A stretch of DNA of 64,000 nt, taken from positions 1,178,001 to 1,242,000 of the forward strand of contig NZ_QURO01000004.1 in assembly GCF_003426945.1 (NCBI RefSeq), written 5' to 3'. This document shows positions 1,250-38,282 of the stretch, piece after piece. The notes below the pieces were generated by a model. It made no database searches. It was given only the letters and a program-made list of their open reading frames with translations, and was not told the origin of the DNA. The stretch is from Thermus sediminis. Lineage in GTDB: Bacteria; Deinococcota; Deinococci; Deinococcales; Thermaceae. A program made the position numbers and the translations under genes. Position 1 is the first letter of the stretch. Every line of letters begins with the position of its first letter.

Positions 1250-2170
1250 TTGGGAGAGTTGCGAATCCTTCGACAAGCGGACGGAAGCGGGCGCTACTAC
1301 TACGGGTTCGTGAGGGTCACCTACACCTCCGGCATCGCCGGGATAGCCTACCTCCGCCACCCCGTGGCCGCGGGGTGGGACCATGCGGGGAGCGCCCCCC
1401 TTGTCATGGCCCACGAACTCGGGCACAACTTCGGCAGAGAACACAGCCCCTGCGGCTTTCCCCCGGGAGACCCCTCCGTGGATCCCAACTACCCCTACCC
1501 CAACGGAAGAATCGGGACCTGGGGGTACGACCTAGAGAGCAAAACCTTGCGCAACCCCAACGGGCACTACGACCTCATGAGCTACTGCTCCCCTCAGTGG
1601 GTCTCTGACTACACCTACGAGGGCGCCCAAAGCTTCCTGGAGCAAAACCCTCCCAGGCCCCTATCCCTGCCCCAGGAAGGCCTCCTCTTCTCCGGACGCA
1701 TCCAGGGGGATGAGGTGGTCTTCAACCCGCCCCTCAGGCTAGCGGTGGCCCTAGAGGGGATGCCTTCTCCCTACCGCCTCAGGGCCGATGGCGTGGAGGC
1801 GGAAGTCTACGTCTTGGAGGACTCTCATGGGACCCTTCACTTCCAGGCCTGGCTTCCCTTGAGGGAGTGGGGTCGTGTTGGCCTCTGGCGGGATGGGGGC
1901 CTCCTCAAGGAGATGGTGGCCGAACCTAGGCCCCTCGCGGAGCCGGAGGTGGAGCTCCGGGAGGAAGGGGGCCTCCTCCAGGTGCGCTGGAGGGGCTATC
2001 CCTACCTCTCCCTGGTCCATGTGGCGGAGGACGGTACCCGCACCACCCTGGGCCTCTGGCACCAAGGCGGAGAGGCCCGCTTCCCCACGGAGGGCCTCCC
2101 CCCGGGTGGGCGGTTTGAGGTCCAGCTCTCCGATGGCCTAAGCGTCCGCCTTTTCCTCTTCCCCCGGTAG
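1250..2170 (+). CDS. Catalytic part of interrupted metzincin-type zinc metalloprotease
   Basis: The protein carries the extended zinc motif HELGHNFGREH at about residues 55-65 of this piece, with three zinc-binding His and the catalytic Glu, followed by a YDLMSYC segment at about 107-113 that fits the Met-turn. This identifies a metzincin endopeptidase, probably secreted or cell-surface bound in view of the Ig-like upstream half. The C-terminal 150 residues look beta-rich and may be a further surface domain. A TTG at 1250 is the first usable start, but the frame runs back without a stop to the TAG at 1166-1168, and residues encoded in 1169-1249 probably belong to the ancestral protein. There is no clear ribosome binding site before 1250, so independent translation is doubtful. 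Confidence 0.75.
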   Translation: MGELRILRQADGSGRYYYGFVRVTYTSGIAGIAYLRHPVAAGWDHAGSAPLVMAHELGHNFGREHSPCGFPPGDPSVDPNYPYPNGRIGTWGYDLESKTLRNPNGHYDLMSYCSPQWVSDYTYEGAQSFLEQNPPRPLSLPQEGLLFSGRIQGDEVVFNPPLRLAVALEGMPSPYRLRADGVEAEVYVLEDSHGTLHFQAWLPLREWGRVGLWRDGGLLKEMVAEPRPLAEPEVELREEGGLLQVRWRGYPYLSLVHVAEDGTRTTLGLWHQGGEARFPTEGLPPGGRFEVQLSDGLSVRLFLFPR

Positions 2171-32784: not shown

Positions 32785-34098
32785 TTGACGCACGAGGCGG
32801 TCTGGCAACACGTTCTGGAGCACATCCGCCGCAACATCACCGAGGTGGAGTACCACACCTGGTTTGAGAGGATTCGCCCCTTGGGCATCCAGGAGGGGGT
32901 CTTGGAGCTAGCGGTGCCCACCTCCTTTGCCCTGGACTGGATAAGGCGGCACTACGCCGAGCTGATCCAGGAGGCCTTGGGCCTCCTAGGGGCCCAGGTT
33001 CCCCGCTTTGAGCTACGGGTGATCCCCAACGCCCCGGTCCAGGAGGACATCTTCCAGGCCGCTCCCAAGGCCGAACCCGCCCCGCCCAAACTCAACCCCA
33101 AGTACACCTTTGAGAACTTCGTGGTGGGGCCCAACAACTCCATGGCCCACGCAGCGGCGGTGGCCGTGGCCGAGTCCCCGGGGCGGGCGTACAACCCCCT
33201 TTTCATCTACGGGGGCGTGGGTCTGGGCAAGACCCACCTCATGCACGCAGTAGGCCACTCCGTGGCCAAGCGCTTCCCCCACCTGAGGATCGAGTACGTT
33301 TCCACGGAAACCTTCACCAACGAACTCATCAACGCCATCCGCGAGGACCGCATGGCGGAGTTCCGCGAGCGCTACCGCTCCATGGACCTCCTCCTGGTGG
33401 ACGACATCCAGTTCATCGCCGGAAAAGAGCGGACCCAGGAGGAGTTCTTCCACACCTTCAACGCCCTTTACGAAGCCCACAAGCAGATCATCCTCTCCTC
33501 TGACCGACCCCCCAAGGACATCCTGACCCTCGAGGCCCGCCTGAGGAGCCGCTTTGAGTGGGGCCTCATCACCGATATCCAGCCCCCTGACCTGGAAACC
33601 CGCATCGCCATCCTGAAGATGAACGCGGAGCAACGAGGCCTCCGCATCGGCGAGGACGTTCTGGAGTACATCGCCCGCCAGGTCACCTCCAACATCCGCG
33701 AGCTGGAAGGAGCCCTGATGCGAACCGTGGCCTACGCCTCCTTAAACGGGGTGGAGCTCACCCGCCAGGTGGCCGCCAAGGCGCTTTCCGACATCTTCGC
33801 CCCCCGGGAGGTGGAGGTGGAACCCCAGGAAATCGTGCGGGTGGTGGCGGAGCACTTCGCCCTCCGCCTGGAGGACCTGGTGGGAGGTGGGCGGCGGAAG
33901 GAAGTGGTCTTGCCCCGGCAGATCGCCATGTTCCTGGTGCGGGACCTCACCCGCTCCTCCTTGCCCGAGATCGGCCAGCTCTTCGGCGGCCGGGATCACA
34001 CCACAGTGCTCTACGCCATCCAAAAGGTCCAGGAGCTTTCTGAGAGCGACCGGGAGGTGCAAAGCTTGCTCCGCTCCCTCCGGGAGAAGCTGGGATGA
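32785..34098 (+). CDS. dnaA: Chromosomal replication initiator DnaA
   Basis: A AAA+ initiator that binds DnaA boxes in oriC and unwinds it. Domain I starts [13 protein letters not shown]; domain III has Walker [11 protein letters not shown], Walker [13 protein letters not shown] and the sensor/Arg-finger region; domain IV has the DNA-binding signature [13 protein letters not shown] chose the TTG at 32785 (437 residues) because GGTGGGGGTG precedes it and domain I homology begins there. Upstream in-frame options are ATG 32758, which lies inside the -10 box, and GTG 32773 or 32779. The gene is followed by oriC and dnaN. Confidence 0.96.
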
Positions 34099-34303
34099 GG
34101 GCTGTGGATAACCTGTGGATAACCCTGTGGATAACCCGGCCTCACCTGTGGATAACCCTGTGGATAACCTGTGGAAAACCTGGGGGGGCTTGGGGCCTGT
34201 GGATAACCCGCGGGTTATCCACACCTTATCCACAGGCAAAGCCCACTTTTCCACAAGAGTTATCCACAACCCCTTTTGCGTCTAGGAGGGCTCTTTCTAC
34301 CCT

Positions 34304-34347
34304 TTATCCACATATCCACAGGCCCTACTACTACGGCTACTAATCTT
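34304..34347 (+). other. Basal unwinding element: paired DnaA boxes, GC clamp and DnaA-trios
   Basis: Two close reverse DnaA boxes (34304-34312, 34312-34320) are followed by GGCCC and then CTACTACTAC-GGC-TACTAATC. On the other strand read 3' to 5' this is GAT GAT GAT GCC GAT GAT TAG, the DnaA-trio pattern of Bacillus subtilis, with the same order of elements. Confidence 0.7.
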
Positions 34348-34378
34348 TTTAAGATTTATAAAAGAGTCTTAGTAGTAG
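34325..34378. repeat. Inverted repeat of the trinucleotide tract flanking the AT-rich unwinding region
   Basis: CTACTACTA (34325-34333) and its exact reverse complement TAGTAGTAG (34370-34378) bracket an AT-rich core that itself holds the inverted pair AATCTT (34342-34347) and AAGATT (34351-34356). The right arm ends 6 nt before the dnaN ribosome binding site. Confidence 0.75.
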
Positions 34379-34395
34379 TTAAGAGGAGGACAGCA

Positions 34396-38282
<3,887 letters not shown>

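Follow-up and report, generated by a model that had tools for sequence, protein, structure and literature searches.

The BUS of B. subtilis consists of DnaA boxes 6/7, a GC cluster and DnaA-trios (PMC6669920, PMC8287927, PMC10721633), for which a published criterion asks that at least three NAN trios lie no more than 16 bp from a DnaA box (PMC8287927). In T. maritima, DnaA-origin complexes need three TAGs for ssDNA binding (PMC10316083). The placing of the second helicase on the strand without DnaA is a stated open question (PMC10201434, PMC13326638); in B. subtilis, DnaD has been proposed to load it on the strand opposite the trios (PMC10201434).

Here we analysed a replication origin within a 64-kb stretch of Thermus DNA (the window), where the order is dnaA-oriC-dnaN and positions 34304-34380 form the unwinding end of oriC (Table 1). 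The best PDB match of the encoded DnaA was B. subtilis DnaA (8btg, E 8.4e-140), and the ssDNA-binding stretches of the two proteins aligned (NELINAIR and NEFINSIR, respectively). Allowing at most one mismatch, 13 DnaA boxes (7 leftward, 6 rightward) are present upstream. Schaper et al. are said to have described in 2000 (J Mol Biol 299:655; cited in PMC7988490) a T. thermophilus oriC at the same dnaA-dnaN locus, AT-rich at one end and containing 13 DnaA boxes; to our knowledge, no mirrored trio tract was described in that study. Across 28 Thermus-type origins (those of 27 genomes of the genus and a single g5 genome), the 13 boxes (34103-34320) hold nearly fixed positions, whereas the position of the right trio tract varies by ~13 nt.

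Table 1. Features of the Thermus origin region, in window coordinates
Feature	Position	Strand	Basis
dnaA, initiator protein DnaA	32758..34098	+	ORF; PDB match 8btg
Seven leftward DnaA boxes, TGTGGATAA type	34103..34206	-	box scan
Four rightward DnaA boxes	34215..34268	+	box scan
Two adjoining rightward DnaA boxes beside trios	34304..34320	+	sequence; Thermaceae conservation
GC cluster GGCCC	34321..34325	.	sequence
Left DnaA-trios; plus strand CTACTACTACGGCTACTA, minus strand TAG triplets	34325..34342	-	sequence; conservation
AT-rich core, 27 bp, 19% GC	34343..34369	.	sequence, computed GC
Right DnaA-trio tract TAG TAG TAG (TAGTAGTAG)	34370..34378	+	phase and substitution pattern conserved
dnaN Shine-Dalgarno sequence AGGAGG	34384..34389	+	sequence
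dnaN, sliding clamp	34396..35544	+	ORF, ATG at 34396; homologues in 50/50 family genomes

A sequence-only reading had proposed a Bacillus-like BUS on the left side, and this is well supported, with two boxes, GGCCC, trios and an AT-rich core following one another in that order. The adjoining boxes are TTATCCACA (34304-34312) and ATATCCACA (34312-34320). From the end of the perfect box (34312) to the start of the left trios (34325) the distance is 12 bp, with the second box in between, which puts three or more NAN trios inside the 16-bp limit. The trios read CTA CTA CTA CGG CTA CTA on the plus strand, the fourth of the six triplets being imperfect, and are accompanied by the GGCCC cluster and, beyond them, by AT-rich DNA (core GC 0.19); in relatives this core contains a quasi-palindrome of the CTTTTAA..TTTAAAAG kind. 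Boxes, GC cluster and left trios are kept in all 27 genomes of the genus and in the g5 genome. The left half is thus well supported as a standard BUS, at which DnaA strand separation is predicted.

Across the AT-rich core lies an exact inverted copy of the left trios with no boxes past it, as the same reading had noted, and this arrangement is real (34370-34378 against the left trios). Counting both strands, TAGTAGTAG occurs three times in the window where 0.06 copies are expected, and two of the three are the left/right pair. The third copy (1294-1302, minus strand) is far from oriC. The comparison of Thermus and Meiothermus origins that had been suggested as a check was run, with origins fetched via the DnaN protein, or via the left motif if elsewhere, and never via the right tract; it found the right tract conserved. 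On the right, 26 of the 28 Thermus-type origins carry a run of three or more in-phase NA(G/A) triplets, drawn from TAG, TAA, CAG, AAG and GAG, whose start is 41-54 nt away from that of the left trios; in the two exceptions (L026, L027) the right side is reduced to TCG TAA TAG CCG. Measured against dinucleotide shuffles, four-triplet scores reached p≤0.05 in 24 of the 28, the window's own tract giving p 0.025 for three triplets and p 0.16 for four. Most other Thermaceae retain a related right tract, shorter and richer in purine (GAGAAGTAG, AAGGAGTAG); 15 of 22 origins reached p≤0.05. In the outer families the tract is mostly degenerate or absent.

Over 115 right-tract triplets from 27 origins, the middle base was A in 111, the third was G or A in all 115, and the first was free; the triplet phase for this count was chosen to fit, the shuffle test being the fair measure. 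A MAFFT alignment of the tract came out ragged, since tract lengths differ, and the counts were made without it. The substitution pattern is the one expected of DnaA-trios: the B. subtilis BUS structure shows DnaA capturing A and G in every trio while leaving the T uncaptured (PMC10721633).

The proximity of the tract to dnaN raises the alternative that it belongs to the dnaN leader, where a purine-rich element next to the ribosome-binding site would serve translation or transcription. In Thermus the tract does abut the Shine-Dalgarno sequence. However, it is kept in the Meiothermus-like genus g4, where dnaN lies about 118-900 bp away, and in the Meiothermus-like genome G042, where the origin is ~12 kb from dnaN, and it therefore belongs to the origin and not to the leader. 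Triplet phase would also be unexpected in a leader, and a promoter scan of 34050-34450 returned no match, making this explanation improbable. The ribosome-binding site alone was likewise considered and is ruled out by the dnaN distance in Meiothermus-like genomes. The separation of the BUS (L072) from dnaN (C2:500568-501644) in G042 is itself unusual. Second, diverged DnaN-like genes, with 35-47% identity to this DnaN, lie away from the origin in G014 (C42:253-1293, L028) and in several Meiothermus-like genomes.

Another suggestion was a hairpin formed by the two tracts, which would hold back unwinding or dnaN expression; a cruciform was considered with it. The tracts do make a 9-bp exact inverted repeat, for which the DNA fold is -8.5 kcal/mol at 37 °C, but the fold has a z of -1.5 and 14 of 200 shuffles were equally good. 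At the temperatures where Thermus grows, moreover, a stem of 9 bp closing a long AT loop would be weak. If the tracts were paired, changes at the right should be matched at the left. When right arms were swapped between Thermus species, mean complementarity was 7.15 for native and 6.80 for swapped pairs (p 0.056), a borderline result that may reflect a weak pairing contribution in Thermus; left/right duplex energy in Thermus gave p 0.29, and swaps in other Thermaceae, Cyanobacteria and Acidobacteriota gave p 0.37, 0.64 and 0.10. With native pairs not significantly more complementary than swapped ones and a fold not clearly above shuffles, the hairpin idea finds no support and we regard it as quite unlikely; nor does restraint of dnaN expression serve as a general reason, since the tract is also kept in origins far from dnaN.

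The arrangement recurs well beyond Thermus. When 84,980 species were scanned for a left BUS with a right TAGTARNAR, 68 loci were returned, from many phyla and groups, including Thermus, Cyanobacteria, Acidobacteriota, Binatia, Rhodothermales, Spirochaetes and others. A second sampling used the left motif alone, avoiding selection on the right tract, with the letters of the right-hand TAGTAR reversed as control (for TAGTAGTAG the reversed form is GATGATGAT). TAGTAR outnumbered its reversed form by 22 to 0 in Thermus-type origins (n=28), by 10 to 0 in Cyanobacteria (n=19) and by 16 to 1 in one Acidobacteriota class (n=30), and showed no excess in the Bacillota sample (4 against 5, n=30). Three-triplet score counts in Thermus-type origins, Cyanobacteria, Acidobacteriota and Bacillota were 15, 8, 13 and 3, where shuffles gave means of 2.9, 1.5, 1.2 and 0.5; the score weights were set with Thermus in view and applied equally to the reversed control. 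Some left-motif matches are probably non-origins, which dilutes these counts. A chance origin of the right tract was considered and is rejected by the shuffle scores, the reversed and shuffle controls, and the excess of copies over expectation in the window.

Some relatives have a DnaA box on the far side as well. An inverted box stands outside the right arm, 68-80 bp from the left box, in five Clostridia-like Bacillota (G746, G770, G591, G641, G114), a cyanobacterium (G154) and Thermogemmatispora (G116). In Thermogemmatispora the BUS pattern was matched on both sides, face to face, giving a double BUS; in G746, G770 and G591 the right arm has a low trio score, and these are double by their boxes more than by their trios. 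The geometry of the double BUS resembles that of Thermus, the right tract ending at a similar distance. The Thermogemmatispora origin (L139 positions 3-76; L201) carries its facing BUS patterns next to densely packed DnaA boxes of both orientations.

In the window's origin the right half has at least three in-phase NAN trios (TAG TAG TAG) and no DnaA box within 16 bp, an adjacent box being absent from all 28 Thermus-type origins. Up to 1.3 kb past the tract, no box with at most one mismatch was found in 24 of the 28, the window included; the other four have a single, non-adjacent box at +133 or about +680. That no box adjoins the right tract in Thermus counts against nucleation of a second trio element there, as published BUS activity requires boxes beside the trios (PMC8287927).

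The suggestion, made in the original reading, that DnaA may be loaded on both single strands is favoured by how the tract is conserved, by its triplet phase and substitution pattern, by its recurrence across other phyla and by the double-BUS relatives. We lean slightly towards a model in which the right tract is genuine and under selection, forming a second, opposite-strand DnaA-trio element that would hold the strand it lies on and guide a second helicase; against it stands the poor right tract of two deep Thermus species and several Thermaceae. From the observed sequence, conservation, phase and recurrence of the tract, we infer binding and helicase steps as follows. DnaA would run from the boxes onto the left minus-strand trios, melting the AT-rich core. 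The exposed plus-strand TAG triplets could then be bound by further DnaA protomers in mirror orientation or, alternatively, by box-array DnaA that folds back onto them; a boxless tract would need either free DnaA or such a loop. The loop is plausible because a distal box is active in either orientation in B. subtilis (PMC6669920). DnaA on the plus strand would keep the bubble open and mark this strand for a second, rightward-moving helicase, the first having been loaded on the minus strand to move leftward. Each strand would thus carry DnaA and receive one helicase, with DnaA doing the job proposed in B. subtilis for DnaD and its recognition element.

The triplets could also be read by proteins other than DnaA. 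Some bacterial primases begin synthesis at CTA or TTA, and CTA on the plus strand at the left and on the minus strand at the right would prime outward both ways, as expected if the triplets were start sites for divergent leading-strand priming. We consider this very unlikely, as the pattern of a middle A, a third G or A and a free first base fits DnaA-trios directly and DnaA boxes lie beyond the tract in double-BUS relatives. Another factor, such as the helicase loader DciA or an ssDNA-binding protein, might bind the right tract in place of DnaA: B. subtilis DnaD has its own strand-specific oriC motif (PMC10201434), and DciA is encoded by the genome of the window and by most tested genomes with a mirrored tract outside Bacillota. 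However, no DciA match was found in several Bacillota with mirrored elements or in Thermogemmatispora, and both the substitution pattern and the double-BUS relatives point to DnaA, so that we judge this alternative unlikely.

If mirrored trios replace DnaD, they are expected in genomes without it. No PF07261 match was found in the genome of the window, the B. subtilis control being positive. Among 27 Bacillota with the left motif, a right-hand TAGTA was present in seven; a clear DnaD (E<1e-6) was found in none of the seven but in 14 of the 20 remaining genomes (Fisher p 0.0019, ignoring kinship). For eight mirrored or double-BUS genomes, picked ahead of the DnaD result, the comparison was 0 of 8 against 14 of 19 (p 0.0006, again ignoring kinship), with weak, short PF07261 matches in three of the eight. 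Many DnaD-less genomes also have no mirrored trios; mirrored trios are not implied by the absence of DnaD. Six Clostridia-like origins (G601 and G764 [L196, L197], G715, G516, G545, G628) carry GATGATGATG-type repeats at the right, often directly before the ribosome-binding site; the TGAT of these repeats fits the TnnT motif of DnaD, and all six genomes have a clear DnaD match.

These results raise a broader proposal, which we offer tentatively as a serious possibility short of an expectation: many DnaD-less bacteria may have a bilateral origin, with convergent DnaA-trio tracts, one per strand, both captured by DnaA to place one helicase each. The full form would be two BUS face to face, and the reduced form, as here, one BUS and a boxless trio tract on the opposite strand. 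If true, this would suggest how DnaD-less bacteria might handle the second strand in a bidirectional start. The opposite-strand tract in these lineages is a sequence-encoded and mutable candidate for second-helicase placement, open to testing in Thermus and in cyanobacteria.

In open-access papers we found no published description of opposite-strand or double DnaA-trios. Judged by its sequence, the left half is already known, as a BUS, and the right half fits none of BUS, eTrio or DnaD element, because it has no adjacent box, lies on the wrong strand for an eTrio and occurs without DnaD. The T. maritima eTrio (PMC10316083) is alike in having three tandem TAGs in the unwinding element that are required for ssDNA binding by DnaA-origin complexes. 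It adjoins the annotated trios and is listed with them in a single 5'-3' sense, whereas the second Thermus tract is across the AT-rich core with its TAGs on the opposite strand, and so falls outside a class defined by three TAGs on the strand of the proximal trios. The DnaD recognition element (PMC10201434) is likewise a strand-specific ssDNA element off the strand of the DnaA-trio filament, with a proposed role in placing the second helicase, but there DnaD recognises the complement of the trios, whereas the Thermus tract is separate, downstream and of DnaA type, in a genome with no DnaD match. With the B. subtilis BUS, the Thermus origin shares an adjoining box pair, a GC cluster, trios opposite the box-sequence strand and then AT-rich DNA; unlike it, the Thermus origin has a further trio tract, on the opposite strand past the AT-rich core, and no DnaD.
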